Shown here one piece after another: positions 33,901 to 63,640 of a DNA stretch of 64,000 bases. Position 1 is the stretch's first letter. Each line of letters begins with the position of its first letter. The notes beneath the pieces were generated by a model that made no database searches, was not told where the DNA came from, and saw only the letters and a program-made list of their open reading frames with translations. This stretch comes from Rufibacter glacialis. GTDB taxonomy: Bacteria; Bacteroidota; Bacteroidia; Cytophagales; Hymenobacteraceae. The stretch covers positions 744,001-808,000 of the forward strand of contig NZ_VKKZ01000020.1 of assembly GCF_008271745.1 (NCBI RefSeq), written 5' to 3'. The translations under genes and the position numbers were made by a program.

Positions 33901-34386
33901 CAAGGCCTCTGCCAAAGAAGTGCGGGATTCCTGGGTATTATGAAGGACTAGCCGGAGGGCCACCCGCCATTGCTGAGGGGTTGGAAACGGTTTTACCTTC
34001 GTTTTTGGCTTAGGTGATGACCCATTTTTGGGCAGAAAAGTGGTGCCCGCACCCACTTCAAGCTCAAGATTGGTCTTTAATTCGGGGGCTCGTTTCTGGA
34101 GCCAATCCAGTAAGTTGGAAGAGATAGAAAGGAAGGTTGGGGCATAGTGGTTTTCCTCTCCGTCTTTTGGTTTCTTCAACCAGATCAGTTCTCTGGCCCG
34201 GTCCACGAACCGCTCATTGTCTATCACTTGTTCCAGTTGTTGCAAGATGCTTTTCTTGTCTTTCTCCAAAAGGACCACAGAATCAGCCCCATCTTCTGCC
34301 AGAACATTGGGTGTGGAACGCACCATGTCCTGCATCAACCCAATGATGGACACGGCCCTGGATGTTAAATCTAATATGGCATCCAT
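30904..34386 (-). CDS. Large membrane-embedded patatin-like phospholipase
   Basis: 1160 residues, far longer than usual bacterial patatins. Layout: helical N-terminal domain (1-240) of no known family; patatin core opened by SGGGIRSATFNLG (oxyanion loop, about 263) with nucleophile Ser296 in STVSGGGYIG; an inserted membrane region with about nine helices (roughly 375-720); then the rest of the patatin fold with the Asp of the catalytic dyad in LSDGAHFDNMGLYELV (about 966). It should hydrolyse membrane lipids from within the membrane. Patatins are common effectors in bacterial defence; the N-terminal helical domain could be a signal-receiving unit. Downstream of, and same strand as, the large operon at 36628-52715. 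Confidence 0.85.
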   Translation of the reverse strand: MDAILDLTSRAVSIIGLMQDMVRSTPNVLAEDGADSVVLLEKDKKSILQQLEQVIDNERFVDRARELIWLKKPKDGEENHYAPTFLSISSNLLDWLQKRAPELKTNLELEVGAGTTFLPKNGSSPKPKTKVKPFPTPQQWRVALRLVLHNTQESRTSLAEALEYMPVQVVLAIEGGNCSAFKQRELQENLVTDPEARALLESDETLVKRLLEKKVSLPFETIFKEELQEVTASRTLRQQPGTIKRGDPIQQAADLELRALAFSGGGIRSATFNLGILQGLSKAGVLPQFDYLSTVSGGGYIGSWYSAWIEREGSLFKVQDRLNPERSPDPMGEEVKPIHWLRMFSNYLAPNSSIMSADSWTVGMTWLRNTLLNQVVIMLLLCTVIAAGLCLYIFWQQLWPAGTSPSLVHWVISGLLLVGAVLAGRGMSSYSQHLPPVNFLKANKTYLITGGLLLIGFLLAFMVSSWIYQNALNEHGSAPISVMDRFTLLRPIAIIGSLGLLMVAALGRYDACLPRYSTLKLSGAIFLLVVFSVVSAFAGVMLLALVWSGLHFLVDLSLSVSSPSWAQYEPPFTFEKFVRSKEFLVNMVFILGPPLIMEVLSLTVVTRMALLGKFFPDDRREWWGRMGAHAHRGMLAWVVLSAICLLGPKLILVVHDHYLLPLAGGWFAFIGIAVRFAFGSGTPALQSSSTNTSRWKDLLVRVAPYLFIVGMLIIASKVIGMAMDYIEVPADVLYKALGLFCALAALTCLLAWRIGVNEFSMHHFYRNRLLRGYMAATRRQTERAATANPFTGFDSQDDLKLAQLRTDLGYQGPLLIINTTLNATQATDLDRQDRKAESFVFTPLYCGYDISRNRPSACAANKSFEYGFRPTKYYAYPEDKNSLGGPGIGTAMAISGAAANPNQGYHSSAATAFLMTIFNARLGWWMGNPRRAQWERADPRFGLGYLIYDLLGKTDTKRDYVCLSDGAHFDNMGLYELVRRRVRLVVMGDGEQDDKFTCGGLANAIRRCRIDFGVEIEIDVTPITNRNKETSFSSQHYAVGTIWYPEDPIGKPSGKLVYLKSSLMGDETVDVREYAQEFPAFPHQSTADQFFSEAQFESYRKLGLHIMEYALKDDKVRVLFGLDKLNAASGQSHQATRGRNTKPVLGKWYKEIVPPYHRFL

Positions 34387-43254: not shown

Positions 43255-43263
43255 AAGTACATT

Positions 43264-46200: not shown

Positions 46201-46548
46201 GTCTTTGTTGGCCCCGGCAGGAGAGGCAGGGGTATATCTCCAGGGAAAGTCCTCGTCATAGAATTCAATGTAGGGCAGCAGGTTAGGTTCATAGTCAGCG
46301 ATACCCAACAAAGGCTCCGTCCGGATGATCATGCTGTTCTGGATGCCGGTCACGTCACCGGGGCCAATCAGCAGAAAATCCTTTTTCAGCCCTGAATCTC
46401 CCACCGCACCATTGACCTGCACGTCAATGGAAATCTGCGCCCTTTCCACCTTGTCTCCGGCAGACGCCCCCAGGGTATCTGTCTCTTTTATATTCCTGGC
46501 GATGCCCCTGCGTGCCCAGGAAAGGAACTGGTATTTACCGAAACTCAT
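43264..46548 (-). CDS. Conserved large-cluster protein, 1094 aa, function unknown
   Basis: Soluble protein without recognised domains. Notable blocks: FLSWARRGIARNI, IDVQVNGAVGD, FLLIGPGDVTGIQNSMIIRT, PWLALVVLKEGEFED, ILCPRKLAPNVLYHAFLVPS and YYRWHFRTGQNFDFEFLVKQ. A Pro/Gly/Lys-rich low-complexity linker (about residues 630-690) divides it into an N-terminal and a C-terminal half. No signal peptide. It lies between the DUF6603-like gene (18 nt upstream) and the 1617-aa gene (9 nt downstream), so all must be co-transcribed. I recall similar sequences only as hypothetical proteins. Function unknown. Confidence 0.75.
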   Translation of the reverse strand: MSFGKYQFLSWARRGIARNIKETDTLGASAGDKVERAQISIDVQVNGAVGDSGLKKDFLLIGPGDVTGIQNSMIIRTEPLLGIADYEPNLLPYIEFYDEDFPWRYTPASPAGANKDHQRPWLALVVLKEGEFEDTTRRQPLPSIKVLDQTNLPPADQLHLWAHMHSNLAHEKSELETFLDDLEEDAKRDPDGVYSRILCPRKLAPNVLYHAFLVPSYETGRLTGLGRPTAGVKAQQVSWPSPDGELPIYYRWHFRTGQNFDFEFLVKQLEPRIMDERVGVRPMDCSKPAFVQADQNKEVSAPVPPVMMLEGAMKAPNAKSTVFPPKDTPQPFFAEVQKLLNLNLYQQENPLEDPYVSIPYYGMYHAMKMDPAIPGKKVIPAADTASEVWYNDLNRDPRNRVPAGFGARVVQENQEKFMDRAWKQLSEVQDANKKMRLFQFTTAVSTFMYRKTVEKRTSEDLLSFTQPLAARILAGSRTVKLAVEQSLLPKAVFEGSFRRITRNNTSFTKGLGNVLQRNTALIQQMNKVNGLTTEAKQTFRGIDLLNSITAFEPPTNLDTLAVWSRQSNLEDDFAYNIPNFKGGFPEVKQWKGPFKPVVVKDLGNIPIKRETPQNAEGPNPFILKADDLKPVPGKADGPLILRPGGTKPKGPVILLDPTGTGGRPGGPIIVDRGPITTVSPAINKLDKTVFTKAVNQAYLNTNVRYQFQEVKTLAPVLEVASLEAQVKSNLDPSLSFKKLKDARIRFPEGMVKIPKEEFLEAMAYPDIPEASYKYLVDLDKEFLLPNLHLIPNNTLSLLKTNQKFIEAYLMGLNYEMGKELLWREYPTDMRGSYFRQFWDVSGFVTPDTTPKDADSLKDIKPIHMWPGASVLGKHNARDAKGDTEQLVFVIRGDLLKKFPNTVIYAQKAFPKETKKIIHTELTPEAYQKEVKFPLYQAEIGPDIKLLGFDLTIEEAAGLKATPNFTDKLGWFFILAEVPGEPRFGMDVTFDPNEPDKITWNDLSWENFGAREIKFLRPEVVPGNTVKAGVTFTAPNDPATGIWGKSSSDMAAILFQRPVMVAIHATEMLDVKVPEVIDKTKVITLLEHITISRLR

Positions 46549-46566
46549 ACGTTTTGGGTCTTAAGG

Positions 46567-49500
46567 TTAAAGAGCGAGCTCGAAACTTTCTACCACCTGA
46601 ATTTTATCTGCTAACGCCGGGTTGCCCTTCACCAGAGAAGCGATGTGTTCTTTGGCCTCTACCAGGGTGCTGGCCCTAAAGCCACCCGCAAAATCAGTGA
46701 GGTTAGACGTGTTGGCAATGGCAAACCCTACCGGATTCACTTCTACTTTGGCAGGGCTGTTGAGGGGGCGGGTACTCGTCTTGCCCCAGCTTAAATTAGA
46801 TTTTGAAACCGCTGATTGCCTTACCAGGTGCCTGAAAGCCAGATCATGGACGGGGAAAAACACCTGGTCATCATCTTGGGTGTAATTCAACTCATAGTTC
46901 ATGACTACCGGTTTCAGGTGGGGTTTGGCGGTCAACAGCTTTCCGCTGTCTTTGAGCTTGAACCCGCTGTCCAGCATCTCAAATGATTTCCTGGACAATT
47001 TTTCGCTTTCACTTAATTTGGTGAAGTGCCCCGGCGCAAACATCTCCTTCTCAGGATCAGTGGCCTGTACTTCTGTGTCAATTAAGACCTTGGAGATGGT
47101 GATCAGGTTCTCCTTGCGCGGCAGTAAGCTGCCGTATTGCTCCATCTTGTAATTGAGCGGGATGGTGCGCTGACTGAACCGCAGTTCTCCGTAGGGATAC
47201 AGCACCAGGGGAGGATTTTCCTCTTCCTCAAAGCTTCTATGGGAGACCGCCTGGTGCTGGGTTTCCGGCAATTCCGCGCGCCAGTTCCTGATATCTTTCA
47301 GCTCACTTTTCACCTTGCCCAGAAGATCTTCGGTGGCTTGATCTATCTTCACAGGGCTATCTCCCCAGGTGGCATCAAACCCGATGGTGACATCAAAAAA
47401 CAGCAGCCCGAAGGTTACCTCCCCTACAATATGCCAAGGCGTGGTACCGGAGAGAACCCCTTTGAAATGGATCCCGAACAGAATGCTGGTGTTTTTCCGG
47501 ATGGCCAGGGTGGCTTCCAAAGAGATGGTGAACCCGAATGGATCAAAGATGAAGATGGCGTCAAAGGCCAGCAACCCATACAGGTTGAATCCCATTGGCC
47601 CGGCTGCCAGCAGTTCCAGTTTAGCCCCAAATTGCAGGGAATTGGACGTGATGGCGAAATAGCACTCTATCGTGAGCCGGGGGTTGTTGCCGCTGAGCAG
47701 GGAAAGCCCGATCCGCACCATGTCACGGAAGGCCGAGGGCAAGGTGGGAACGGAAGGATAATCCCGGAAATCTGGGTGGAACCCGCCCACGCTGATGGCA
47801 AACACGCTTTGGTTTCCCCAGGCCACCGCAAACGCCAGACTGCCCGTCAGCGGAAAACCTACCAGCATGGAATCAAATAGCTGGGCTTCAAAATAGATGA
47901 ATTTGTTCTGGAAGTCCATCACCCCTAAAAAGTTGACCTGCAATTTGAGCAAGGCCGCTTCCTCAGTGGGGAGTTTGGTGCTGATCACCCCCAGGATCAG
48001 AATTTTAGGATCAGGTATCTCCACCATGAGCCCCAGCTCGATCTTGATGAGGGTAGGCGTTCCCCACCCTATCTTGGCCATCAACCCAATCAAAAACTGC
48101 CCCTCCCTAATAGGGAAAATCTGTTTCAGGTCACTGATGATCCTGGGCAGGTTTCCAATGACATCTTCTGGGAACAGGACACTCTTGATGGCATTGGTCT
48201 TCAACCCCAGGCGAAGAGTTTCTACCTGTACGGTTCGGTTGAGCCCCAGCAAGCCGCCTACGCCCAGCAAGGTGAAGCCAAAGGGCAGTTGCATGGGAGC
48301 GAACTCAGCGGTGATGATCACGATCATGGAAAAGCCCTTGGAGCCGTCTGGCATGATGGTGTTGATCAACCCCACGGCTTTCAGGGTGAAGGAGTTCTTA
48401 AACTCCAACTCCAGGGATCCGAAGTATTCTCCCCGAGGCTCATCTATGTACAGGAACCCACCGCCCTTGATCACTTCAGCGTTGATCTTCACTCCTACGC
48501 CGTTGGGCATTTTGAGACTTGGCACAAGATCATATCCGCCTATGCCGCCGGTAACAGTCCGTTTATTTAAATTCAGGTTCATTCCCAGCCGGCTCACGGC
48601 AAGCGTTAGCACCGGCCCGAATTTCAACCAGAAATCAAGGGACGTTTCCAGCACAATATTCTCAAAATTGCCCTGAACCCCAGTCTTGACATTCAGCACC
48701 TCCAGCCCCACCACATTGCCGATGTTTTTGTGCAGCGGCAGCCGCAGGTCAATGGCGTTTAGGATCATTTTGGCCAAACCAGCCACTAAACCGCCTTCGC
48801 CCCCAGAGGCACCTGCTCCTGCTCCTGTTCCACCCCCATCGCCGTCTCTGGAAAGGGCCGAGGTAGTGGTACTTGTCTTGGCGGGCGTACCGGCACTGCT
48901 GTCCCCGAAAAAGAAATTGCGCTGGAGCGAGTACCCGAAGGAAAGCGGTATTTTCTCCTCTACTTTCTCAGGAAGCTTGTCAAACGGAAAACCGGTGAGG
49001 CCCCCGCGCCCGAAAAAGAAAGGCATCTCTGATTTGAAATACAGCACAAAGTCATCTGGGGTAATCTTGAGGCCAAGGCCGTAGGTGCCAAACCCTATCT
49101 TGATAGCTGGCCGGTTGAACATAGACCACATAGAGGGCGTTTTCCGCTCATGCTTGTATTCTACCCCCAGGTGGTTATTCAGGCCCAGGCCTTTGTCTGG
49201 CTGGTTACCAATCCGGAAGATTCCTTCGCCGGCGGCATCAAATTTCACAGACTTGCCATCCCCCACAGAAAGAAGGTAATTTAGTATCCCGGCTTGGTTC
49301 ACCAGCAGGGAAACCCCGCCATGGTCATTGGGAACCCAGGAAAGGGTGTTGTAAAAGGTGGTTTCTGCCTTGTCTGCCGGGGTAATGGTGATGGAATAGC
49401 TGAGGGTACGGTCTGTGATGCTGTCCGCGACCGGGGTGCGGGTGGTTTTCACGCCCTCAAACCCGTACCAGGATTCTATCTGCACAGTTTCTATCCCGTA

Positions 49501-50109
49501 CTTCTCCAGCACCAACTTGTCCAGCAGAAAGAAGCCGGAGCCCAGCAGCAGGAAGATGCAATCAGATACGGTTTTCGCGTCCTCTTCGGTGGCAAATTTA
49601 TCAAACCCCTGGCCCAACCGTTTGAAATAGCCAATCAGGATGTCTTTGACAAACTTGATGGAGCCGCCTTCGGCCGCCGTTTGCCGCCCTACCACACTGA
49701 TCAACTGGATCACACTGTGAAACGTGGGCCTGCGTCTTCTGATGTAATCAATCACCAGGATATTGGTGAACGTGTCCAGGGCTTCTGAGGCGGCAAAGTT
49801 TTTGTCCTCTTCTGACACCGCCGCGGCCCTGAAAAAGCCTTCCAGGCTCAACATGAGTTGGGTCAGGTTGGCCATGGCGTCCGCTAACAGGATAGCGTCC
49901 ACCTCTTTTTTCTCCTTGTTGATGTATTTGTCCAGGCTTTCCGTGGAAGTGGCGTCCGGGCCTTGGCTGGTCTCTTTCAAACCAAGGCTGTTGAGGAATT
50001 CAGTGCGGGAAGCCGGATCGCCTAGCAGCTTGATGCCGGGCGAGAGAATATCCCTGACCGTTTTGAGGATAGATTGAAAAAGGTCTTTTTCCTGCGTCTT
50101 TTCAGCCAT
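46567..50109 (-). CDS. DUF6603-like large protein
   Basis: 1180 residues. A helical N-terminal ~220 residues is followed by a very long beta-rich region (about 230-960) with repeated amphipathic strands and phrases typical of what I recall as DUF6603: FGFTLLGVGGLLGLNRTVQV, GQFLIGLMAKIGWGTPTLIK, GSLAFAVAWGNQSVFAISVG, GFHPDF, LYGLLAFDAIFIFDPFGFTI. The pattern looks like a beta-helix or barrel-like lipid- or surface-interacting domain. A Ser/Gly-rich linker lies at about 405-435. No signal peptide. The gene is 11 nt after the PhoD-like gene. Family name moderately sure; function unknown. Confidence 0.7.
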   Translation of the reverse strand: MAEKTQEKDLFQSILKTVRDILSPGIKLLGDPASRTEFLNSLGLKETSQGPDATSTESLDKYINKEKKEVDAILLADAMANLTQLMLSLEGFFRAAAVSEEDKNFAASEALDTFTNILVIDYIRRRRPTFHSVIQLISVVGRQTAAEGGSIKFVKDILIGYFKRLGQGFDKFATEEDAKTVSDCIFLLLGSGFFLLDKLVLEKYGIETVQIESWYGFEGVKTTRTPVADSITDRTLSYSITITPADKAETTFYNTLSWVPNDHGGVSLLVNQAGILNYLLSVGDGKSVKFDAAGEGIFRIGNQPDKGLGLNNHLGVEYKHERKTPSMWSMFNRPAIKIGFGTYGLGLKITPDDFVLYFKSEMPFFFGRGGLTGFPFDKLPEKVEEKIPLSFGYSLQRNFFFGDSSAGTPAKTSTTTSALSRDGDGGGTGAGAGASGGEGGLVAGLAKMILNAIDLRLPLHKNIGNVVGLEVLNVKTGVQGNFENIVLETSLDFWLKFGPVLTLAVSRLGMNLNLNKRTVTGGIGGYDLVPSLKMPNGVGVKINAEVIKGGGFLYIDEPRGEYFGSLELEFKNSFTLKAVGLINTIMPDGSKGFSMIVIITAEFAPMQLPFGFTLLGVGGLLGLNRTVQVETLRLGLKTNAIKSVLFPEDVIGNLPRIISDLKQIFPIREGQFLIGLMAKIGWGTPTLIKIELGLMVEIPDPKILILGVISTKLPTEEAALLKLQVNFLGVMDFQNKFIYFEAQLFDSMLVGFPLTGSLAFAVAWGNQSVFAISVGGFHPDFRDYPSVPTLPSAFRDMVRIGLSLLSGNNPRLTIECYFAITSNSLQFGAKLELLAAGPMGFNLYGLLAFDAIFIFDPFGFTISLEATLAIRKNTSILFGIHFKGVLSGTTPWHIVGEVTFGLLFFDVTIGFDATWGDSPVKIDQATEDLLGKVKSELKDIRNWRAELPETQHQAVSHRSFEEEENPPLVLYPYGELRFSQRTIPLNYKMEQYGSLLPRKENLITISKVLIDTEVQATDPEKEMFAPGHFTKLSESEKLSRKSFEMLDSGFKLKDSGKLLTAKPHLKPVVMNYELNYTQDDDQVFFPVHDLAFRHLVRQSAVSKSNLSWGKTSTRPLNSPAKVEVNPVGFAIANTSNLTDFAGGFRASTLVEAKEHIASLVKGNPALADKIQVVESFELAL

Positions 50110-50120
50110 GGCCGTAGAAA

Positions 50121-52715
50121 TTATACCAGTTGCGGTCTTTTGGTTTCATCTCCCATGGCCTTCAAAGAAGCCACGTGCTTGATATGCGCTCCAACTGTCC
50201 TCTCGGCCGGTTTTCGGTTGCCTTTTCTGAAAAAGAACTCATGGTGCACTTTCCAACTGGTACCGTCTTCTTCAAAGGTGATTTTACTTACATTAGAGGG
50301 CCAGATGAGCCTCCGGGACACTCCTGAGATAAAGGTGTCCTGGTGGCGCTGCACCACCTTCTGGTAGCCGGTTTTGAGCGATTCCTGGTTGGTGGGGATG
50401 ATGTCTGTTTTGATGTGTTCATCTGGTCTTTCTCTCTCATCTGCCAAAAACCGGAGCCGCCAGCGGTAGTCCGGCTCCACATTCACTTTTGCCCCGGTCT
50501 GCCAGCCCGCCGTAGGAATCACCGCCAGGTCTTGCCGCAGCCGGTGCCTGTTCCGGATGCTGACCTTCCCGGTAACGGAGAGGACTTTGCCTTTCCAGCC
50601 TACTTTTTCCAAATCGGCCCCAATACCGGTGAAGATCTTCTGGATGATGGCTGATTTGAAAAAAGCCAGGTTCTCCATCCAGGCGTTTTTGGAGGCACTG
50701 GAGGTTAACTGCAGAATTCTGCCCGAAGGCGCTGCGTCTGTCCCTTTCCAGTAATCCAAGACCGCGGTAGAGCCAAAATGGACATCCCCAGACAGCAGGA
50801 GCACCTTCTTATAGGTATTCAAGCGCTCAATCAGGCGTTCAAAGGCGGGTACATTGAAGGCCCAGGACTCTAAATCAAATTCGATTTCCCCGGCAATCAC
50901 CCCCACTTCTGAGCCCTCACTATCCTTAATGCCCACCACCGCAGCAGCCGCCGGCTGAATCAATTCTTCAAAGCTGGCTAAGCCCAGTACCGGCACCGGC
51001 GACACGACCATTACAAAGGGAGCCTCAGGATTGGGCAGCACCTCCGGTAGTTGAAGTTTCAGCTCGTCTGCGGGTATCAAGCCCGGAGATGCGTTCAAGG
51101 AAGGGTATTCCCGGCTTGTTCTGGTGTTGAGCACGTAGGTTTGTACCGGGCCGGTGGGGAAGTTATAGTGCCATTTGACTTTGGAGGCTTCGCTTCCCAT
51201 TCCCAGCAAGGTTTCCATGGGCCCAATGACTTCGCTCCTGAGGGTGTCTAACCCGGTTTGAGTGGCTACCCGGTCGCAGTATTCGGCGGTGAGCCTGAGA
51301 AACCTGGTTCTCTCTGTGAGGGTGGTGGTATCTTCGCCGGTTTCTTCAATGGCTTTGTATTCTGAGGGTACGTTGCCCCAATCCTGGAAAACGGCATAGG
51401 CCATCAAGCCATTCCGGATAATGTCCCGCCCCAGGGGTTTGGAATATACCTGGTTTCTCCAACGTTGGGTTAGATTCCAGTCGTCGGTTATTTCATGGTC
51501 ATCAAAAATCATGTAGCACGGCACGTTGGCCATTACCCGGCTCACCTGGGGCAGTACCTTCGCAAAATTCGCTACTTCCTTCAGCTCCCGTTCCAAGGTA
51601 TTCTTGATTTTATCCAACCATTTGGTGTATTTTTCACTGGAAGGGCTTCCCTTCAGAATCTCGGTTAATTTCTCATGGTACACGTACTTTTTAGCCTCGC
51701 CCATCAGGTTGTCTACATCCTTCATCAAAGAGAGAAAATTAGGATCATCTAATGTTCCGGTGCCTTCCAGCAGGTCTTTGGCCACGCTGGCTATTTTTGC
51801 TTTGGTGGGCTCTTTTAGAATCTCATTGATTCTCCGGTAGAAATCCTCATTCCAGGACCTTAGACTCCAAGAGTTCAGATACACGCCGGCGAATTCTTCA
51901 AAACTCATGAGGTGGCACCCGGCGGCCCCGCTGGTAAAACCGGCGTACGTATTGATCACATGCTGCCGCAGGTACGGGGGAAAGGTGACATGCTCGGCCG
52001 ACAGTTCTTCGGTTTTACTGGTGGTATCTACCCTGATGGCAATGGTTTCTTCGCCCACCCGAGAGGTATCTCCCTGGGTACCGGCAAACCGCAGCAAAAT
52101 GCCGGCTACATCATCTGCATAAATCTGGTCTCCGGTGAGAAGCAGTTGCTGCGGTCTGTTTTTTATCTGAGGACTGGTTTCCTTGGAGTAAGATTCCAAA
52201 ACTGAATCCAGGTAGGCGAGAGCGTCATCTCCCTGGCCATGCATTTTTCGGCAAGAAGCCTGCGCAATGAAAAGGTCTTGGGGTTTTTCTGCCGGAATGG
52301 CAAAAGAAGGCAGGATATTGGATTTGTACCCTAAAGCTTTCTGCGGCACCGGGGTGTCTGCATCCGTTAAAAACCCTTCGGTGCGTAAATTCCCCTTTAC
52401 TGCCACCTCTTGTTTATCATCAATCAATAGGTTATAGCTATAGATTTTCCCGGCCTGCAGGCTCACCGCCCCTATTTCAGCCGTCACCACTGCTATCCAG
52501 AGATTTTTTCCGAACTGTACCGTAGGGGCTTCGTTTTTGGTTGTTTCAATGAGGGTGGCGGTGGTGGTCACCCCATCTTCCCCTACTTCCACGTGGTCTC
52601 CTTGGTAAATTTTAAGGGAACAATGGAAATTACTGGAACACGCCAGCCAAACCGAAACTGACTTCTTTTCCACCCTCCTTAAAATAGGGCCGGCAATTAT
52701 TCTCGGGAGTGACAT
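50121..52715 (-). CDS. PhoD-like metallophosphatase
   Basis: 864 residues. N-terminal beta-sandwich (IIAGPILRRVEKKSVSVWLA; about 1-115) as in PhoD-type enzymes, then the calcineurin-like metal site: LLLTGDQIYADDVAG (about 191-205), MIFDDHEITDDWNL (about 405) and LLLSGDVHFGSTAVLDY (about 640). It lacks the Tat or Sec signal that secreted PhoD enzymes carry, so it is probably cytoplasmic, acting as a phosphodiesterase or phosphatase on an unknown substrate. First gene of the five-gene operon; similar signal-less PhoD_2-type proteins appear with the same large proteins elsewhere, from memory. Confidence 0.85.
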   Translation of the reverse strand: MSLPRIIAGPILRRVEKKSVSVWLACSSNFHCSLKIYQGDHVEVGEDGVTTTATLIETTKNEAPTVQFGKNLWIAVVTAEIGAVSLQAGKIYSYNLLIDDKQEVAVKGNLRTEGFLTDADTPVPQKALGYKSNILPSFAIPAEKPQDLFIAQASCRKMHGQGDDALAYLDSVLESYSKETSPQIKNRPQQLLLTGDQIYADDVAGILLRFAGTQGDTSRVGEETIAIRVDTTSKTEELSAEHVTFPPYLRQHVINTYAGFTSGAAGCHLMSFEEFAGVYLNSWSLRSWNEDFYRRINEILKEPTKAKIASVAKDLLEGTGTLDDPNFLSLMKDVDNLMGEAKKYVYHEKLTEILKGSPSSEKYTKWLDKIKNTLERELKEVANFAKVLPQVSRVMANVPCYMIFDDHEITDDWNLTQRWRNQVYSKPLGRDIIRNGLMAYAVFQDWGNVPSEYKAIEETGEDTTTLTERTRFLRLTAEYCDRVATQTGLDTLRSEVIGPMETLLGMGSEASKVKWHYNFPTGPVQTYVLNTRTSREYPSLNASPGLIPADELKLQLPEVLPNPEAPFVMVVSPVPVLGLASFEELIQPAAAAVVGIKDSEGSEVGVIAGEIEFDLESWAFNVPAFERLIERLNTYKKVLLLSGDVHFGSTAVLDYWKGTDAAPSGRILQLTSSASKNAWMENLAFFKSAIIQKIFTGIGADLEKVGWKGKVLSVTGKVSIRNRHRLRQDLAVIPTAGWQTGAKVNVEPDYRWRLRFLADERERPDEHIKTDIIPTNQESLKTGYQKVVQRHQDTFISGVSRRLIWPSNVSKITFEEDGTSWKVHHEFFFRKGNRKPAERTVGAHIKHVASLKAMGDETKRPQLV

Positions 52716-53609
52716 AACCTTTAAGGAATATGCGGATGGAGAAGATATAGTATCCTATTTTCTACCTAACAGGGTCATGTAGCTAAGATAAGTACACATG
52801 AACCTGTATCAGCCGAATCGCCTAGCCAAACGTGTCGTGTTATTGACAGCAATCCTCGGGGAATCTTGGGGGGGGTAGTAATATGAAAACCGTCTTTTAA
52901 GCCGGAGGTGACTATATTAAATTAAGGCGATGAAGAGCGTAAATCAATACTTACTAATGGGTATAAATCCGAAGATTTAAACAAAATACCTTTAAAAAAA
53001 CCCGCTTCTGATTAAACAGGGCCCTCTTTGTACTCCTTTCTACCATAGGAACTAAGGGAATCGGAATTGAAATTGCCGGTAAACCTTACCCCTCTACCTT
53101 AAGGAGTCCACTTGCTAAAAAGGTCGGTAAAGGATGATAGCTAACCATACCCTAACAGGAATTGGGATCCAAAGAATGGAGAAGGTAGAGGGGAAAGCTT
53201 TTCACTTGCTATCAGGAGGAAAAGTGCATAGGGAGGTATTCTGCCTGTCAAGCTTTCAGATACCCCTTCATGAAGGTTGAGAATCTTAATAAAAAGAAAT
53301 AATAGGGAGCATTTCTTATATCTACTATTATCTACTATCTAAGGTCTTTATCTAGGATGCCAATCAAGATGAATTTTGCAAGAAGAAGAGCGCTAAAAGA
53401 TCTCCTCTATCCTGAACTTAGGGGCTATGCCTTACTATAGAACTCTTTTTCACCCAAGCGCGATTTATTACCTTAATACAAGTAGAGACCTTGCCTTATT
53501 TTAATATACTAAACAATTGGTGGTAGAAACTTAAATCATTTGGTATCTAGAAAAACCGTTCATTTCCTTTTTACCTAAGGAAGACCCATTTATATAAAAA
53601 TTCTAGATT
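52716..53609. other. AT-rich gene-free region upstream of the large operon
   Basis: About 890 bp without a supported gene. It must contain the promoter of the minus-strand operon starting at 52715, but no clear TAnnTTTG was found. Visible oddities are a run of eight G near 52868 and a short direct repeat ATCTACTATT-ATCTACTATC near 53320-53340. Base composition is clearly AT-richer than the operon and matches the following caspase region. Confidence 0.45.
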
Positions 53610-56600
53610 TTAATAAGATTGCTGAAGTTCATCTATCCACCTCAACGCATCCCTATGGGCTTGTTCCACTATGCTCTCTGTCGCTGATTGGTATCCCTTT
53701 TCCCAAGATTTTTGATAAGCTTGATGGCCAAGGGTGGACTCAAGAAGTTTCAAAGTTTTAAGATCTTCCTCATACTCCAGCTCCGGTAAAGTAGCTTTGG
53801 CCGCCTCACGTAATTGCATGGAGGCACCGAATAAAATCACACTTTCTCTGGGCTCTTTTAGGGAAAAAGCAATATTGGCTAAACCCTCCAAACATTCAGC
53901 TACTAACTGCCTCCTTCCTAATTCCTGGTGTTTTACCAGGCTTAAGTCAAAATACTGTATAGATTTGATGTAATCATTTTTAGCATTTTGATAATTGCCT
54001 TTTGATTTGGAATTAGCCAGATGGTAAAAAGCGGCGCCCAACTCTTTATAGTTTAAGGCTTTGCCCCATTTATCGGTTGGTCTTTGTAAGTCTAAAGCTC
54101 TATTAAGGAAGTCTATGGCTTCTGTAAACTCTTGTTTTTTGTAGGAAAGAACTCCCAAGCAATTAAGCGTCAAGGGTAAGCCCCACCTGTCACCGAATTT
54201 TTCCCAGATATCATAACTTTGATTATAAAAGACTTCTGCTTTTTCATAATCTTTTTCTGCCGTCAAAACCCTACCTAAATCATTCAGAGAAAGGGCTTTC
54301 CCCCATTCATCTAGCAACTCTTCAAATAGCCGTAGACTTTCTTTCAGCACCCATTTCGCGTCTTTATAATTTCCTTGGTTTAACAGGATAACCCCTACTA
54401 TTATCTTGCAGTATCCCAGCCCACGCCTGGCATCATCTTTCACCTTTGCCTCTGCATTGAAGTCTTTTTCATATTTCCCCCATATTTCAATGCTTTCATT
54501 GAGTTTGGAAAGTGCCATGGTATAATCACTTTGGAGAAATGCCAACCCACCAGCACCGTATAAAGCCTTGGCACGTGAAACGGAAGAATCAGAACCGGTT
54601 GTCTGATCTAACAAGGCTTCTAGCCACTTGCGCCCTTCACTTAAGTGACCTCTCAGGTTCCAGAACCAGAAAAGGTTTCCGGCTAACCCTAAACCTAGTT
54701 GACACATGTCTGCATTTTCCAAACACCATTCTAGAACTGCTCTGAAATTCTCATACTCCAGATTCAGTTTATCCAGCCACCTACCCGGACCTCTTTCCGC
54801 ACTGGTAAGCTTTGTTTCTGCCTCTGCGGCAAAATCAAAAAAAAGGCGGGAGTGGATCTCTTTGATGAAGTACATCTCACCATTTATTTTCAAGCGTTCA
54901 AGGGCGTAGGACCTGATAGTCTCCAGCATACTATACCTGAATTGCCCGTCAAACTGAATCTGGGTTCCTTTTTTCAAAAGCCTTTTGCCCACTAAAGATT
55001 CTATGGCATTGTCAATATCTTCATCAGACAGGTCGTTAATTTTAGACTTATTTGTGCTATTGAAATTGCTCTGCTTGATTTTCTTAAAAAAGCACTTTGC
55101 CATAATAGGCGTAAAACCTCCTTCAAAAACCGATAGAAACCGGAAGACTTGTCTTTCCTCGTCCTTCAAAAAAGAATAATTCCAACTGTTTGTTTCTTGG
55201 ATTGTCTTATACAGTTCAATGATATTTAGATAGGTGTTACTGTTATTCAAGAAGCCACTGCTTTTTATTCTTTTCAAGACAACTTTAGGTTCTACCTTAT
55301 CTATATGGCTTGATATGGTTTCTATGGCTAAAGGGAGGCCCTTTGTTCGCATGCAAATCTCCGCGACCTCCCTAGAATTGGCTTCTGTTAATTCAAAGGA
55401 GGAATTGAATTCTTGGGCACGTTCCACAAAGAGACTGATAGAACAGAAATTAGCAATCAGGTCCTCTGGAGGCAAAGTCAGGTCGGCTGGCTTAGGAAAA
55501 TTTAAAGGGAATAACTTAATTACGTTCTCCTGTTCAATACCAAGTTTGCATTGGCTGGTAATAAGCAGTTTTAAATTCTCACAATTTGCCTGCAACTCTT
55601 GAATAAAATCATTTGCATCCAGTAAATTCTCAAAATTATCGAGCACCAATAAAAAGCTTTTCTTTTTCAAAAAATTAATCAGGTGACGAGGAGATTTGAC
55701 CTCAGGGAATTCAACTGTGGGGGCAATTTCCGTGGGAACTTGTTTAGGGTTAAGTACAGAGGCTAAGGGAATAAAACGAACGTCTACATCGGCCAATTCT
55801 TTCGCTATTTCAATAGCTAACCGTGTTTTGCCTATTCCATTACAGCCTGTCAAGGTAACTATCTTACTGCCATATGGGCGGAAAAATTCCTTAATTAAGG
55901 CTTTCTCCTCATGCCGGCCAAAAAATTTATTGACAGGGATAGGAACTTCACCAGAGTGTATTCTTATAATTGGGGACCTCTCATCTAAGGTTTTCTTTCC
56001 GTAAGAAGCTTTGTTAGGGAAAAAAGGAATTTTGGCAATATCACCCTGCCTCTGGTCAGGAGAATGCACTTCTGGTTTTGGGGCTGCTCCACCATACTTG
56101 TCGACAAGATATTGCTCTGTGAGTTCAGCTAGCGTGCGCAGTGACATATAGTCAGGATAACACCTTTTTCCAGAAACCAAGGCAGAAATCAATCCGTCTG
56201 TAAACATGGTGGTACTGCCATCTGGAGCAATGAGAGCAGGTTTGGTATGATTAGAAGAGCAAAATAAGGCGGTTCCTTTTTCAGGCACTACTTCCAGAAC
56301 ATCTTCTCCGGTACCTACCTCCTTGAAAACTTCGAGAGTCTGTATGGTGGCAGCCTTTTCTGCCAATCCCATAAAATCCTTGGCCGCAGACCCTGAGAAG
56401 CAACAATCAAGGATAACCGTCTTACGAATATGACTGGCAAACTCTTTTAAAGTAAAGGCTAGTGAGCGGATCCCGATGGAAGTGGGACCGGGATTACTTC
56501 CTTCTGTTCCCTTGATAGCCAGGTAATATTCCTGTCCCCTTTCGACAAAATCACCGTGACCGATATAATAAAAGATCAAGTCCTTTGCCTTGCTTCCTGA

Positions 56601-56864
56601 TGCACGAAGACGATCAATGCCTGATTCAAGGAACCGAGCCATCTCTACGTGGATATCTGAAGCGGAAAGAGGAGTGTCAAAAAAATCCAGAAAATTTTCC
56701 TTAGGGACATTGAAGTGACTCATGAAATAGTCGCGCACGCTGTTAGAAGCATGCATGAAGGCATTTATCCCATTATTGAAGTTTATGGCTTTTGGATACT
56801 CACTTGCGCCAAGTAAAATCACCAGGGTGGTTTCACCAGTTGGCTTGGTCTTAACAGTTGCCAT
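53610..56864 (-). CDS. Caspase-NB-ARC-TPR (STAND) protein
   Basis: 1084 residues. Domain order: caspase-like peptidase C14 (about 12-270) with catalytic His103 in YYIGHGDF and Cys in LDCCFSGSA (Cys154/155); a linker; NB-ARC-type STAND ATPase (about 314-520) with FFGRHEEKAL, Walker A GCNGIGKT (340-347), Walker B LLVLDN (405-410), LLITSQ sensor and GLPLAIE; a winged-helix part; then a long TPR array (about 690-1060; LNDLGRVLTAEKDYEKAEVF-type units). Analogous to NLR-like defence proteins: TPR senses, NB-ARC oligomerises, caspase cuts. It lies divergent to an EACC1-like gene in AT-rich DNA. Trigger and substrate unknown. Confidence 0.9.
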   Translation of the reverse strand: MATVKTKPTGETTLVILLGASEYPKAINFNNGINAFMHASNSVRDYFMSHFNVPKENFLDFFDTPLSASDIHVEMARFLESGIDRLRASGSKAKDLIFYYIGHGDFVERGQEYYLAIKGTEGSNPGPTSIGIRSLAFTLKEFASHIRKTVILDCCFSGSAAKDFMGLAEKAATIQTLEVFKEVGTGEDVLEVVPEKGTALFCSSNHTKPALIAPDGSTTMFTDGLISALVSGKRCYPDYMSLRTLAELTEQYLVDKYGGAAPKPEVHSPDQRQGDIAKIPFFPNKASYGKKTLDERSPIIRIHSGEVPIPVNKFFGRHEEKALIKEFFRPYGSKIVTLTGCNGIGKTRLAIEIAKELADVDVRFIPLASVLNPKQVPTEIAPTVEFPEVKSPRHLINFLKKKSFLLVLDNFENLLDANDFIQELQANCENLKLLITSQCKLGIEQENVIKLFPLNFPKPADLTLPPEDLIANFCSISLFVERAQEFNSSFELTEANSREVAEICMRTKGLPLAIETISSHIDKVEPKVVLKRIKSSGFLNNSNTYLNIIELYKTIQETNSWNYSFLKDEERQVFRFLSVFEGGFTPIMAKCFFKKIKQSNFNSTNKSKINDLSDEDIDNAIESLVGKRLLKKGTQIQFDGQFRYSMLETIRSYALERLKINGEMYFIKEIHSRLFFDFAAEAETKLTSAERGPGRWLDKLNLEYENFRAVLEWCLENADMCQLGLGLAGNLFWFWNLRGHLSEGRKWLEALLDQTTGSDSSVSRAKALYGAGGLAFLQSDYTMALSKLNESIEIWGKYEKDFNAEAKVKDDARRGLGYCKIIVGVILLNQGNYKDAKWVLKESLRLFEELLDEWGKALSLNDLGRVLTAEKDYEKAEVFYNQSYDIWEKFGDRWGLPLTLNCLGVLSYKKQEFTEAIDFLNRALDLQRPTDKWGKALNYKELGAAFYHLANSKSKGNYQNAKNDYIKSIQYFDLSLVKHQELGRRQLVAECLEGLANIAFSLKEPRESVILFGASMQLREAAKATLPELEYEEDLKTLKLLESTLGHQAYQKSWEKGYQSATESIVEQAHRDALRWIDELQQSY

Positions 56865-57282
56865 ATCATTAAGTCAAAAAGTTTTCCTTTACGTATTTAC
56901 TATGAAAATACTATTTTTTTTAATAATTTTTATATTTTGACAATATTTTTTATCTTTAATCTCATTGTTTTAGAACTGATACAACAATTAGGTCTCAGCT
57001 CCCTATCCCTTATGGGGAGACTTTGAATTTATTGGGCAGATGATGAGAGGTTAGATAACTAAAAAGAGTGTAGAGACATGTTATTCTCGGTGACCCATAT
57101 TCATCAAAAGAATTGACTATTACTTTTAATTCACCCACAAAAGTGCCCTAACCAGTTTAAGGCAAAGATGAAGGTATAGGAAATCAGAGTAGGGTGGTTG
57201 ATTTTGGAGAACTCCTTTTGGGCAGTCTTCCACCTCCAAACTAATTCACACTTAAATAAGAAACCTAATAACAGCAGAGAAC
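56865..57282. other. Divergent promoter region of the caspase/EACC1 system
   Basis: 418 bp between divergent starts. 56880-56960 is extremely AT-rich with T and A runs (promoter-like). No exact TAnnTTTG was found on either strand; the closest is TATTTTG at 56933-56939. No regulator site recognised. Confidence 0.4.
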
Positions 57283-57636
57283 ATGGAAAAGAAGGAGATC
57301 ACTATCAGAATAGATAAAGTAGAATCAAACGAGGCTACCCAAAGTGCCAGGGAACTTAGAAGCTACCTTAAAAGCGAAATAGAAGAATTACAAATCGATA
57401 TCAAGAAAGAAGCTACCGACACAATGGATTTTGGGGCTACCCTTGTCCTAATATTGGGCGCTCCGGTATTGGTAGAGCTAGCGAAAGGAATTGCGGACTT
57501 TATCAGAGCCTATGGATCTAAAGCTGAGTTTACCATTGAGTGCAATGGTAAATCGATCATATTCAAAGGAGGAACCGAGGATGCCGCCAAGATTGCTGAG
57601 TCACTGAAAGAAATCTGTGCCCCTTCTGCTACCTGA
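57283..57636 (+). CDS. EACC1-like small protein (effector-associated constant component)
   Basis: 117 residues. Layout: short N-terminal strand ITIRIDKV, a helix (SARELRSYLKSEIEELQIDI), a hydrophobic segment (FGATLVLILGAPVLVELAKG, about 50-69), an IADFIRAYG helix, and a C-terminal strand pair (AEFTIECNGKSIIFKGGTED) ending in AAKIAESLKEI. This order matches the EACC1 family (Effector-Associated Constant Component 1) described by the Aravind group in STAND/peptidase conflict systems. It sits divergent to the caspase-STAND gene and 143 nt before the GH43-like gene. EACC1 is thought to link effectors to the ATPase core. Family call is by pattern and context. Confidence 0.75.
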   Translation: MEKKEITIRIDKVESNEATQSARELRSYLKSEIEELQIDIKKEATDTMDFGATLVLILGAPVLVELAKGIADFIRAYGSKAEFTIECNGKSIIFKGGTEDAAKIAESLKEICAPSAT

Positions 57637-57742
57637 TTCAATGAAAGGAGTTTCCTGCGCTCATGTAGCGTTGTAAGGGTTCACGTATTTGAATGGTTTA
57701 AACCCTGTTTCTGAGAAGATGCTCAAAGTATTTTATCTAGTA

Positions 57743-57750
57743 TACTTTTG
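57743..57750 (+). promoter_or_regulatory. -7 element (TACTTTTG) for the GH43-like gene
   Basis: TACTTTTG matches TAnnTTTG and lies 30 nt before the ATG at 57780, at a normal distance. It suggests the GH43-like gene can be transcribed on its own as well as from the EACC1 promoter. No clear -33 TTG. Confidence 0.35.
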
Positions 57751-57779
57751 GATTTCAATGAACCTTTCAATTATCAAAG

Positions 57780-59222
57780 ATGGCTATCTTAACCTCTCCT
57801 CATGATGCACCTTTCATCTTTAAGATCAATTTGAGAGATAATCATGAGAAGGATACATCTGAATTCTCCATTGAAGTTACTGGTAAAGACCCAAAAACAG
57901 ACCAGGTAATAACCAGTTCCTATTTATTGGCTGACAAAAGCCATGTTGCGTATCTTAATTTTTATGACACCTTAGCAAAAGACTTTGATTTGCGTGTACC
58001 ATTGAACAGACGTCGTGAAGAAAAACTATTTGTCAAGAACAATTTCAACACACTACTGAATAAGAATATTGCCCCCACCATCCTATATGGATATGGAGAC
58101 CCGGCAGCTATTCGGGTAGATGGAAAAGAAGGCCAGGAAAAACCATGGTTTTACCTGCTTGCCACCTCCAACGATGCCCCAAACTCTTTTCCAATTATCC
58201 GGTCAAGGGACCTTACGGAGTGGGAGTTTGTGTCCTTTGTTTTCCCAAGTGGGGAAAAACCAGAATGGGCTATTGACGGTGAGAACATCAGTGATTTCTG
58301 GGCTCCCGAAATGCATAAAATTCAGGAGGAGTATGTCACCTGTTTCGTCGCCCGTGAAAAGGAAACCCATGAACTATGCATCGGCATCGCTACGTCACCC
58401 GAACCCACTGGTCCCTTTGTTTCAGGAAAAGAACCACTTTTAAAAGGGAATGTCATTGATCCACACATTTTTGTGGATGATGACAAGAGGGTCTATTTTT
58501 ATTGGAAAGAGGACAATAACGACCTTTGGCCCAGTAAACTTCTCGATTTCCTGTATCGGAACCCACTTTTCATCAAGGATCTCTTCCTCACCAAAGAAAA
58601 TCAAGTCACTGCCTCCTTCGTTCTTACGCTTTGGCCGTGGACCCAAACGCTCAAACCAATGGAGCGATTCATGGTTAACCAAGTACTAATTGAAGCGGTT
58701 GTTTCTGAATTCTCAGCCTTTTATGAACGGTTAACCGGGTTTATGGCCCAACAACCAAACTCTATTCAAATTGAAATCAAATCACTCCTTGAAGTATTAA
58801 GGACTCCCATTTATTCCCAGCAACTTACACCAGCTGGGTATAAGCTTATGGGGGATAAACAGAAGGTCATCGAAAACGACCAGGAATGGGAAGCTCACTT
58901 AGTGGAAGGGACATGGATAACCAAGCGGAATGACAAATACTATATCTTCTATTCAGGCAATGACTTTTCCACTGACCAGTATGGAATAGGTGTAGGTATT
59001 GCCGAATCACCGGTTGGTCCTTTCACAAAAATGGACGAACCGCTTTTGCGTTCAAATTCAGAGTGGTGGGCTCCGGGACATCCTTCGATAGTAGTGGGAC
59101 CAGATGGAAATTCTCAGATGCTACTTCACGCATATTATCCCGGAAAGGCTGGCTACAAACAGTTCCGCGCCTTGCTTTCAGTACCTATACAATTTGAACC
59201 CGACGGTGTCCTAGTGGTCTGA
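57780..59222 (+). CDS. Cytoplasmic GH43-like protein with helical insertion
   Basis: 480 residues, no signal peptide. Five-bladed GH43-like propeller with all three catalytic positions: Asp107 (YGYGDPAAIRV), Asp227 (NVIDPHIFVDDD) and Glu376 (HLVEGTWITKRN), plus FWAPEMH, IATSPEPTGPF and GHPSIVVGPDGN. Two additions are unusual: an N-terminal ~95-residue domain of unknown family and an insertion of about 100-115 mostly helical residues (about 245-360) between the second Asp and the Glu. GH43 enzymes normally act outside the cytoplasm on arabinans or xylans. Its place beside EACC1 and a caspase-STAND gene suggests an effector or target role instead. AT-rich like its neighbours. Confidence 0.8.
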   Translation: MAILTSPHDAPFIFKINLRDNHEKDTSEFSIEVTGKDPKTDQVITSSYLLADKSHVAYLNFYDTLAKDFDLRVPLNRRREEKLFVKNNFNTLLNKNIAPTILYGYGDPAAIRVDGKEGQEKPWFYLLATSNDAPNSFPIIRSRDLTEWEFVSFVFPSGEKPEWAIDGENISDFWAPEMHKIQEEYVTCFVAREKETHELCIGIATSPEPTGPFVSGKEPLLKGNVIDPHIFVDDDKRVYFYWKEDNNDLWPSKLLDFLYRNPLFIKDLFLTKENQVTASFVLTLWPWTQTLKPMERFMVNQVLIEAVVSEFSAFYERLTGFMAQQPNSIQIEIKSLLEVLRTPIYSQQLTPAGYKLMGDKQKVIENDQEWEAHLVEGTWITKRNDKYYIFYSGNDFSTDQYGIGVGIAESPVGPFTKMDEPLLRSNSEWWAPGHPSIVVGPDGNSQMLLHAYYPGKAGYKQFRALLSVPIQFEPDGVLVV

Positions 59223-60294
59223 CTCTATTCCAGAACATACTTATAGAAGAGGAGAAGCAAGAATTCTCATTTGCCCCGCTTTGTATAAGTAGGTATGCTG
59301 GATCTGACATCCATAATGCTAGCCTTCTTCTACGGCTGGCTATTTCACCTATTTTCCAATTATCCCATTGAAGCACTCTTCAGCACACGTGAGTTTGAAG
59401 ATGGGCGTTTAAAAGTTGCAGGGAAGTAACTGAAAAAATAAAATTTACTTGCCCAAAAGAAAGCCCCTTTTGAAGAAGTAGCCCTAAAATGCCATAGCTC
59501 CGGTCTCCCTGCCCTTCCAAGTGGCGAAAATTTGCCCAGTTTCACCAAACAGCTTTCTTAAAAAACCCTGACTTCCGCCCATCTCACCAATCCTTCAGGT
59601 AAAGCCGGCGGAAGCCAGGGCATTTCTTTCTGGTATTCAATTTTCAGGTCTGGCTTTGTGCCAGGTTTAAGGTATTAAATATTGGATAAATTCTTTTTAC
59701 GCACCTGTTCCTCTAGGATTCCGGTGTCTTTTGTTAGGGTTCAGGTCTTGGCTGCTGGAATAACGTTCCCAGTCCAGTGGCAGAGCTAAGTGGGGAAGGT
59801 TCCCTGAGGTTGGGGTAAAACGGGAATCAACTCCCCGTTTCCATCCATTTCTTCTCAAGTTGAACCGAAAACAAATCTACCCAGGTTTCCCTGCTTCTGC
59901 CCCATCCCTGGCCCTGGGCTATTCCCAACCCCGCCCTGTGATTTTTCACAGACCCCTAAAGGAATTTGCCCGGGCATCCCCAGTCTTTTCCCAGAAAAGC
60001 TGGTATGCACAAAGAAGCTGATTATCCTCCTCTATCAGCTTCACCCGTGATACGTAGCTAGCTTATACTCAGTTTGTTACTTTTCCAATACAGCCATTAA
60101 AAAAAAAAAGGGCCTTTCCCTTACACACCTATTAATAATCATTTTATGCTTTCATTTTCTATTCCTTACCTAGTGAGTAGGCTGTCGCATTACAGGAGCT
60201 ACCACCCTGAAGGGGTAAAGGGATTGCTGGAATGGAAGTCATAACTCCTAAATTAGAGACCGGGAATACGTCTATGCCTCTCTCTTGAACCTAT
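59223..60294. other. Gene-free gap after the GH43-like gene
   Basis: About 1070 bp with no supported gene; one minus-strand ORF near 59360-59548 is unconvincing. It marks the change from AT-rich island DNA back to more GC-rich chromosome. The single clear structure is the hairpin at 59566-59620; a run of A residues lies near 60100. Confidence 0.5.
59566..59620. repeat. Long hairpin (13 of 14 pairs)
   Basis: CCCTGACTTCCGCC (59566-59579) pairs with GGCGGAAGCCAGGG (59607-59620) with one mismatch and a 27-nt loop. No T tract follows directly. It may end transcripts entering from the GH43-like gene or mark the island border. Confidence 0.4.
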
Positions 60295-60957
60295 ATGTGG
60301 GATGTTTATATCTATTTTGGCTTACTGATCCTCAGCATCGGGCTCTGGGCATCCTGCTACGGGCGTTTGGCGACGGGCCTGAAGGTGCTGGGCTTCGCCT
60401 TGCTTCTCAACCTGGGCATGGAAGGTTATGCCGCCTATCTGATGTTCCAGTTGAAGAGGAACCTGTACATGTACCATCTGCTCATTCCCATCCAATACAC
60501 CTTATACACGCTGGTGTTCTATTTTGCCTTTCACAGGCCAAAGGTAAAGCAAGCGGCCCTGGCCTCCATTCCGGCCTACCTGCTGGCGGTGATGTTTATC
60601 TTGGTAAGTCTCCAGGTATCAAATGAATACAATTCCTTGGCCCGGTCCCTGAAAAACGTGTTGTTGGCCGCTTGGGCCCTATTTTATTACACAGACGTTT
60701 TCAAAGGCCTGATGGTCCAGCGCCTGGAAAAGGAACCCATGTTCTGGATCAGTACGGGCTTCCTTTTCTATTCCCTCGGGAACTTCTTTGTAGATGGATT
60801 GATGAACCATATCTTAGAGCAGTCTTATGAACTGGGCCACACGCTCTATTTCATCAACGTAGTACTAGGGCTGCTCCTGAATGTGACCATCCTGATCTCC
60901 TTCGCGCTGGCCAGAAAGCAGACCTCCGGGAACCTCGCCTTGGCTCCAAGCCCTTGA
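60295..60957 (+). CDS. Multi-spanning membrane protein of a two-component operon
   Basis: 220 residues, about seven hydrophobic helices (roughly 5-22, 28-50, 58-78, 86-106, 115-132, 148-168, 185-206). No extracellular domain or catalytic motif. It resembles the membrane-only sensory units (7TM-type) that accompany Bacteroidota histidine kinases. It ends 13 nt before the kinase gene, so the three genes 60295-62399 form one operon, and it probably supplies the sensing part that the short kinase lacks. Confidence 0.75.
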   Translation: MWDVYIYFGLLILSIGLWASCYGRLATGLKVLGFALLLNLGMEGYAAYLMFQLKRNLYMYHLLIPIQYTLYTLVFYFAFHRPKVKQAALASIPAYLLAVMFILVSLQVSNEYNSLARSLKNVLLAAWALFYYTDVFKGLMVQRLEKEPMFWISTGFLFYSLGNFFVDGLMNHILEQSYELGHTLYFINVVLGLLLNVTILISFALARKQTSGNLALAPSP

Positions 60958-62581: not shown

Positions 62582-63640
62582 ATGACTGGTACCATACAGT
62601 TATTAGATGTAGGCGATGGCGATGCTATTCTGGTGCACCTGCACAAAGAGGGCAAAGACCTGGTCCTAGTGATTGATGGTGGCCAGGAGCGGCATTATGA
62701 ACAGGTGGTAAAACCGGCCCTCTCAAAGCTGCTACAGGAACTAAACAAAATCGCCCCAGACATTATAGTTGCCACCCATTATGACAGTGACCATATCGGC
62801 GGCTTAATCCCCTTGGTGCAGGACTACCTGCTCGGGATAAAGGAAGTGTGGGTACACCGTAGCCCAGAGCTAGGTCCTGAGGACGGACAGATTTTGGCCT
62901 CCTCTGATAAAAAGGCGCGGTTAAAGCACCTGGGGTTGGAGCGTTTGGAAGAATCACTTGCCCGGGAAACTTACACCGGCCACCTGGAAACGATCACCAG
63001 CAAATCGGCTCTACTGATAGAATCCCTAAAACAATTAGATACGTTCTTAGGCCTTCTGCCAGCAACAATGGTTCGGCAGGTATTCCATGGCGATTCCTAC
63101 CCAGGTTGGCCTGAGATAAAAGTCCTGGGGCCTGAAAAGGGGTATTACCAAAAGCTTTTCCCCGCCTGCACCTCTTTACAGGACCTGGTAGTAGCAGAAA
63201 CCCGTGACTTTTTGACAGCCACCCCTGGGGCGGTTGAGGTAAAGGAAAAAACCAACCCAAACCCAGTCCAGGATCCCTGTCTTAGGCTGAAAGACGATTC
63301 CAGGGTGAGTCTGACGGCTACGAACAAAGCCAGCATTATTATAGCCCTGGACAAGGGAGATCAGCGTTTCCTTTTTACGGGTGATGCAGGTATTCCATCC
63401 TTCAAAGCAATCCCAGCCTGGGAAAAGGAGCTGAAAGACCTTTACTGGCTCAAAGTTCCCCATCACGGCAGCGACAACAACATTTCCAAAGAACTCATAG
63501 ACCTTATGCGCCCGGAGTATGCCGACAGCTCCGGCGACCGGCACCAGGACCAGCATGTATTGGATTGCATTGCCAGGAACACAGTGGATAAATCCGTCAG
63601 ATCCACCAAAACTTCCGGCTGCCTTATCTTTCCTATCTAA
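62582..63640 (+). CDS. ComEC-like metallo-beta-lactamase-fold hydrolase
   Basis: 352 residues, no signal peptide. Metallo-beta-lactamase fold of the ComEC/Rec2 C-terminal type: IQLLDVGDGDAILV and LVIDGG at the start, metal motif ATHYDSDHIGG (His66, Asp68, Asp70, His71), FLFTGDAG (about 262), VPHHGSDNNIS (about 296) and a C-terminal ADSSGDRHQDQHV. ComEC relatives of this sort degrade DNA or act on nucleotides; stand-alone forms are also found as effectors in defence islands. It is a single gene 182 nt after the regulator. Substrate unknown. Confidence 0.82.
   Translation: MTGTIQLLDVGDGDAILVHLHKEGKDLVLVIDGGQERHYEQVVKPALSKLLQELNKIAPDIIVATHYDSDHIGGLIPLVQDYLLGIKEVWVHRSPELGPEDGQILASSDKKARLKHLGLERLEESLARETYTGHLETITSKSALLIESLKQLDTFLGLLPATMVRQVFHGDSYPGWPEIKVLGPEKGYYQKLFPACTSLQDLVVAETRDFLTATPGAVEVKEKTNPNPVQDPCLRLKDDSRVSLTATNKASIIIALDKGDQRFLFTGDAGIPSFKAIPAWEKELKDLYWLKVPHHGSDNNISKELIDLMRPEYADSSGDRHQDQHVLDCIARNTVDKSVRSTKTSGCLIFPI

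Follow-up and report, generated by a model that had tools for sequence, protein, structure and literature searches.

EACC1–Caspase Systems and Overview of the Locus

The closest described relative of the genes considered here is the two-gene EACC1 conflict system, System 4 of Kaur, Burroughs, Iyer and Aravind (eLife 2020; PMC7159879), in which, in the sections of that paper drawn on here, an EACC1 gene is followed on the same strand by a caspase gene. STAND NTPases and repeats are described there on EACC1-partner caspases, EACC1 is proposed as a possible membrane-associated sensor activating the caspase of its partner, and the hosts named are actinobacteria, where the systems are prevalent, and sporadically proteobacteria. 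Unlike these hosts, the source of the window (the whole stretch of 64,000 nucleotides analyzed, Rufibacter glacialis contig NZ_VKKZ01000020.1, positions 744,001 to 808,000) is a member of the Hymenobacteraceae (Bacteroidota). The window contains a low-GC block with genes for a caspase–NB-ARC–TPR protein, an EACC1-like protein and an enzyme of glycoside hydrolase family 43 (GH43). The three open reading frames (ORFs) from which the original prediction had composed a three-component conflict system were all recovered at exactly the positions it gave (Table 1).

We interpret the first two genes as a conflict module of the known EACC1–caspase–STAND kind, probably acquired horizontally, diverged in sequence and divergently transcribed, to which the GH43 gene does not belong (probability about 0.77). 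As in System 4, a small EACC1-like protein accompanies a partner with an N-terminal caspase, a STAND NTPase and superstructure-forming repeats. The EACC1-like gene lies beside the caspase gene, the caspase His and Cys are in place and an NB-ARC/TPR part forms the C-terminal portion; however, the two genes do not form a single operon with EACC1 5′ and caspase 3′, and both the EACC1 and the caspase domain score under the curated cut-offs. Because the genes are divergent, the pair was classed as a divergently arranged relative and not as a canonical operon. On this interpretation, EACC1–caspase–STAND systems would extend to a Hymenobacteraceae genome and to a divergent gene layout, and the locus would offer a compact two-gene target for probing the role of EACC1.

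Table 1. Coordinates of the features discussed (window numbering unless another record is named).
Feature	Position	Strand	Remarks
Caspase–NB-ARC–TPR protein gene	53610..56864	−	1084 aa; ORF and Pfam
Caspase domain	within about residues 1-300 (55965-56864)	−	His103, Cys155
NB-ARC domain	residues 322-538	−	Walker A 340-347, Walker B from 406
TPRs	about residues 820-1030	−	Pfam TPR_12
Intergenic region between divergent caspase–STAND and EACC1-like genes	56865..57282	.	418 bp
EACC1-like protein gene	57283..57636	+	117 aa; PF19953, profiles, hydropathy
GH43-type glycoside hydrolase gene	57780..59222	+	480 aa; probably bystander
Low-GC block with all three genes	52768..60294	.	GC profile, congener comparison
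Very large genes, including DUF6603 and PhoD-like protein	38401-52715	−	1617, 1094, 1180 and 864 aa
Metallo-β-lactamase (MBL)-fold protein gene	62582-63640	+	PADLOC LmuA (Lamassu-type) match, E 3.8e-31
EACC1-like coding stretch of CP151670 (L045)	about 4914-5237	+	ahead of caspase gene

The Caspase–NB-ARC–TPR Protein

Pfam placed an NB-ARC domain (34.1 bits, cut-off 23.5) and TPR_12 repeats (87.3 bits, cut-off 30.1) in the 1084-aa protein. His103 of the caspase domain was intact and the conserved cysteine was C155, the second Cys of a ‘DCC’ motif, with both positions kept in all 19 aligned caspases, window included. The Walker A motif GCNGIGKT starts at residue 340, the Walker B motif LVLDNFE at residue 406 and a GLPLA motif at residue 509, and the earlier statement that His103, the Cys, Walker A and Walker B are intact was confirmed by alignment and motif positions. 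The best NCBIfam model was NF047832, ‘caspase, EACC1-associated type’ (E 1e-20). As a specific marker this model was rejected, sub-cut-off matches being common in Bacteroidota: 110 of 395 genomes matched it at E 0.001 and none above the cut-off, so that the name alone is little proof. No phage homologs of the caspase domain were found at E 0.001.

Judging from these families, the pair is predicted to have an NTP-dependent conflict (defence) activity. The C-terminal TPRs would sense a signal from an invader or from stress, nucleotide exchange at the NB-ARC domain would lead to oligomerisation, and oligomerisation would bring the N-terminal caspase domains together and activate them, after which the active caspase might cut itself or cell proteins and drive an infected cell into dormancy or death. 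In this favored STAND-switch model, EACC1 would serve as the constant partner, whether by holding, anchoring or triggering the caspase.

The EACC1-like Protein

The 117-aa protein matched the Pfam family PF19953 (EACC1) at E 2e-4. An EACC1 profile built without it recovered it among 4708 ORFs at E 2.7e-8 (32.0 bits), and a profile that also omitted its nearest relative, the Isosphaeraceae row, did so at E 8.7e-6 (23.9 bits, 4708 ORFs). These hidden Markov model searches support the assignment of the small protein to EACC1 in the original prediction, as a diverged member. A central hydrophobic LGAP stretch spans residues 53-71; the 19-residue hydropathy maximum was 1.87 and K and E occur within the stretch. 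In the described systems EACC1 has a single transmembrane helix with small residues in the middle; hydropathy alone cannot settle a membrane helix in the window protein. Among solved structures none was convincingly similar (best E 0.024).

Pairing of EACC1 and Caspase Genes in Other Loci

Across plasmid records totalling 7.3 billion bases, the only match to the EACC1-like protein at E 1e-5 was a stretch of CP151670, plasmid pEP7_03 of Isosphaeraceae bacterium EP7 (39.7%), located directly upstream of a caspase gene. When the window caspase domain was searched separately, this same caspase was the best of three plasmid matches (32%, E 1e-39), and the nearest plasmid relatives of both window proteins are therefore neighbors of each other. 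Unlike the window genes, the CP151670 pair is codirectional, and Pfam detected only a caspase in the larger protein, neither NB-ARC nor TPR. PLSDB, whose gene table is incomplete, does not list the EACC1-like stretch of CP151670; a terminase gene is also listed on the record.

A broader set of EACC1 loci was compiled from two sources. Matches to PF19953 were found in 10 of the 390 genomes of the window's order, and nine were kept after a match of 22.2 bits (G535) was dropped for lying inside a longer unrelated ORF. From plasmids, 19 stretches were fetched around matches, with one search that matched 33 records contributing 17, and 16 of the 19 had an EACC1 match (none in L064, L116, and L118). 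Among the resulting 25 loci, which span roughly 3 to 16 kb each, a caspase gene lay directly downstream of EACC1 on the same strand in 24, at gaps of -25 to 182 bases, as scanned with profiles built from many of the same rows; independent of those profiles, 21 of 22 aligned EACC1 proteins, window included, matched PF19953 at E 0.01. The only locus lacking a caspase match, within 12 kb, was that of G528 (L062, EACC1 gene at 5909-6460). Most plasmid loci had been found via the caspase, and for alignment the small gene just upstream of the caspase had been chosen, so that the plasmid set leans to the usual gene order; among the nine order genomes, found by EACC1 alone, the count was eight. The window was the sole divergent EACC1/caspase arrangement among the loci compared.

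The architecture of the window caspase was also found beside EACC1 elsewhere. In the Streptomyces plasmids NZ_CP109405 and NZ_CP108790 (L113 and L117), which are near-identical to each other at these loci, an EACC1 gene directly precedes a gene for a caspase–NB-ARC–TPR protein; unlike in the window, the genes are codirectional with EACC1 first, and the sequences are distant. A plasmid of Nocardia salmonicida (L115) carries a second, weaker EACC1-like match at 1192-1875 (−), on the strand opposite to a nearby canonical EACC1–caspase pair.

Several observations weigh against the interpretation as an EACC1–caspase–STAND module. The EACC1 match reached 21.7 bits under a curated cut-off of 23.6, the caspase match to PF00656 19.9 bits, slightly below 21.4, and the match to NF047832 74.2 bits, where the cut-off is 140. 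With PADLOC, the EACC1-like protein had no match and the caspase protein only a generic TPR match. Among 98 relatives the whole caspase protein matched only the window's own genome at E 1e-30, leaving 97 without a match, and a search of 395 Bacteroidota genomes likewise gave no match to the EACC1-like protein in the 394 others. The usual two-gene operon is replaced by a divergent layout, a Paraburkholderia relative of the caspase (L064) has no EACC1 match in 12.8 kb, which speaks against strict pairing in this branch, and apart from the MBL-fold gene no defence genes were recognized by eye in the 40 kb rightwards from 61501.

The orientation, the scores under cut-off, the Paraburkholderia locus, which falls in the same clade as the window caspase, and the different genes that adjoin the flanks in congeners would also suit a reading in which the two proteins are not partners and two unrelated conflict genes happen to be neighbors where the genome is variable. 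We regard this as unlikely, in view of the fact that each protein separately finds the same neighboring gene pair in another phylum and that a same-strand caspase adjoins EACC1 in nearly all other loci, including the set found by EACC1 alone. Furthermore, among 30 Bacteroidota caspase loci found by a caspase model, none had an EACC1 match within 1.5-kb flanks. The original proposal that the caspase–STAND protein is the sort of EACC1 partner reported by Kaur et al. is supported by the profiles, the CP151670 pair, the other loci and the caspase tree, and the two genes are supported, by homology, as a diverged EACC1–caspase pair.

Phylogeny of the Caspase Domains

A tree of 50 caspase rows, including 18 of the 24 EACC1-linked caspases and 30 comparison caspases from the best-scoring Bacteroidota loci, was rooted at its midpoint. 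The window caspase grouped with the Isosphaeraceae protein with support of 96/67, which is below the double threshold, and the two joined the Paraburkholderia caspase with support of 100/99. The window's side of the tree held 17 of the 18 EACC1-linked caspases, while the other side comprised the 30 caspases without EACC1 and a single EACC1-linked row (L120); long branches were flagged by the tree program. These results indicate a diverged branch consisting of the window, the Isosphaeraceae and perhaps the Paraburkholderia proteins, which is missed by current curated models at their cut-offs. In the Paraburkholderia sabiae plasmid protein (L064, 5986-7266), the His motif reads YVGRAY by eye, and the His seems lost.

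The GH43 Enzyme

The 480-aa protein matched Glyco_hydro_43 (PF04616) at E 2e-44, and the acidic residues D107, D227, and E376, which we take to be catalytic, were present. The first Asp was conserved in all seven orthologs covering it and the second in all eight, and the Glu was replaced by Asp in one of eight (L041). A model built with eight orthologs had a mean predicted local distance difference test (pLDDT) score of 86.1, and a fold from the single sequence was discarded (pLDDT 37.6). The nearest solved structure was 4qqs, with a template modeling score of 0.78 when normalized to target length and 0.52 when normalized to query length; the fold and the active-site Asp/Asp/Glu are shared, whereas the window protein carries additional N-terminal sequence and, inside the propeller, a large helical insert (about residues 249-340), both common to the aligned Bacteroidota orthologs. 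On this match and model, the protein is a genuine GH43-type enzyme with a propeller fold, and the intact active site claimed for it in the original prediction was borne out.

Matches to GH43 at E 0.001 occurred in 62 of 98 genomes, and near full-length orthologs (51-56%, E 1e-172 or better) in 10 of the 97 genomes other than the window's own. A second search added eight ortholog loci, two of which duplicated earlier records, while a ninth, weak match (34%) was left out. In total, 16 distinct GH43-ortholog loci of 4 to 21 kb were compared. Their neighbors, typed by gene clusters with one member of each cluster identified, included a PhyH-like gene in six loci, a SusC/SusD-type pair in two, a GH9 gene in two, and a major facilitator superfamily (MFS) gene in three.

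The position of this gene would suit the third component of the original prediction. It starts 143 bp beyond the EACC1-like gene, in the same orientation and in the slot downstream of EACC1 usually held by the caspase–effector, and as an effector it would be released or activated by the caspase and act, for example, on a cell-surface, storage or phage glycan. The intact active-site residues and the confident fold would suit such a role, as would the GC content at third codon positions (GC3), which is low in all three genes (0.41-0.43; 0.43 for GH43) compared with two congener GH43 copies (0.64 and 0.79). However, none of the 16 GH43-ortholog loci had an EACC1 or caspase match, and none of the 25 other EACC1 loci had a GH43 gene of the window type, so that a survey of neighborhoods, as originally proposed, yielded no other locus with all three genes. 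Nor did the alignment reveal any insertion beyond those of the orthologs that could serve as a caspase-cleaved gate in the window protein. The six bases TANNTTTG, which we take to be the Bacteroidota -7 consensus, begin at 57743, 37 bases ahead of the GH43 start; the box could point to a promoter of the gene's own, but it is weak, and a chance match is likely.

No glycoside hydrolase in an EACC1-type system turned up in the literature searched, and the terms ‘glycosyl hydrolase’, ‘glycosidase’, ‘glycoside’, and ‘GH43’ are absent from the main text of PMC7159879, the source data lying outside this search. On the gene neighborhoods, GH43 was rejected as a third component, and a caspase-controlled glycoside hydrolase appears very improbable, including the glycan targets suggested above; if the linkage were true it would represent a new effector class, against which the present evidence speaks. 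Ordinary sugar use, named in the original prediction as an outcome counting against it, finds some backing in the orthologs that adjoin SusC/SusD, GH9 or MFS genes. The GH43 gene is probably a bystander, a chance neighbor of the EACC1–caspase pair, whose product would act on sugars outside the module. PADLOC gave no match for the protein, and a GH43 tree could not place it.

Composition and Probable Horizontal Transfer

The block is AT-richer than its flanks, as first noticed in the original prediction: GC3 was 0.41-0.43 in its three genes, whereas seven flanking genes gave values of 0.56-0.73. Its left edge was set where DNA similarity to a congener (G003) ends, and its right edge at the last base ahead of a 220-aa gene that heads a histidine kinase–response regulator set. 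The PhoD/DUF6603 genes on the left have 80% DNA identity to one congener over 7.1 kb, from 45686 to 52767, where the similarity stops; on the right, the trio of 220-aa gene, histidine kinase and response regulator recurs in 4 of 15 congeners. Five stretches of congener DNA, taken where the flanking genes have homologs, contained none of the three block genes, and congeners carry different genes beside the flanks. The region around the block is variable. A clean empty site was not found: of 15 congeners, one matched at the left flank and four, all different from that one, at the right.

With the transfer suggested in the original prediction, the differing composition and the lack of the three genes in these congener stretches agree, and the EACC1–caspase–STAND module was probably acquired horizontally and has diverged; given the common composition, GH43 may have been acquired jointly with the rest of the block. 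No mobile-element border was found at the locus, no informative repeats in 52000-60900, and no tRNA by a scan of the whole window. Promoter and terminator scans of the locus were near chance level, and sigma-70-type promoter-like sites in 56800-59400 were no commoner than in shuffles.

Genes Surrounding the Block

A precedent for a bacterial caspase activating an effector is canu, for which caspase–nuclease loci are described in the part of PMC12799240 drawn on here. The caspase-driven defence logic suggested for the window module is similar, and the LmuA match of the MBL-fold protein, encoded 5.7 kb from the caspase gene, could be taken to mean that this protein is a pro-nuclease activated by the window caspase in a canu-like manner. 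Unlike in canu, however, no nuclease adjoins the window caspase, which is fused to NB-ARC–TPR, and the trio ending in the histidine kinase–response regulator pair, which the MBL gene follows and which is shared with congeners, intervenes. The GC3 of the MBL gene (0.56) is also higher than that of the block, and such a role is extremely unlikely.

To the right of the MBL gene are genes that by eye resemble sugar-acid catabolism, and no partner in defence was recognized for the MBL-fold protein. Farther to the left, at 30904-34386 (−), is a gene whose 1160-aa product has a match to patatin-like phospholipase.

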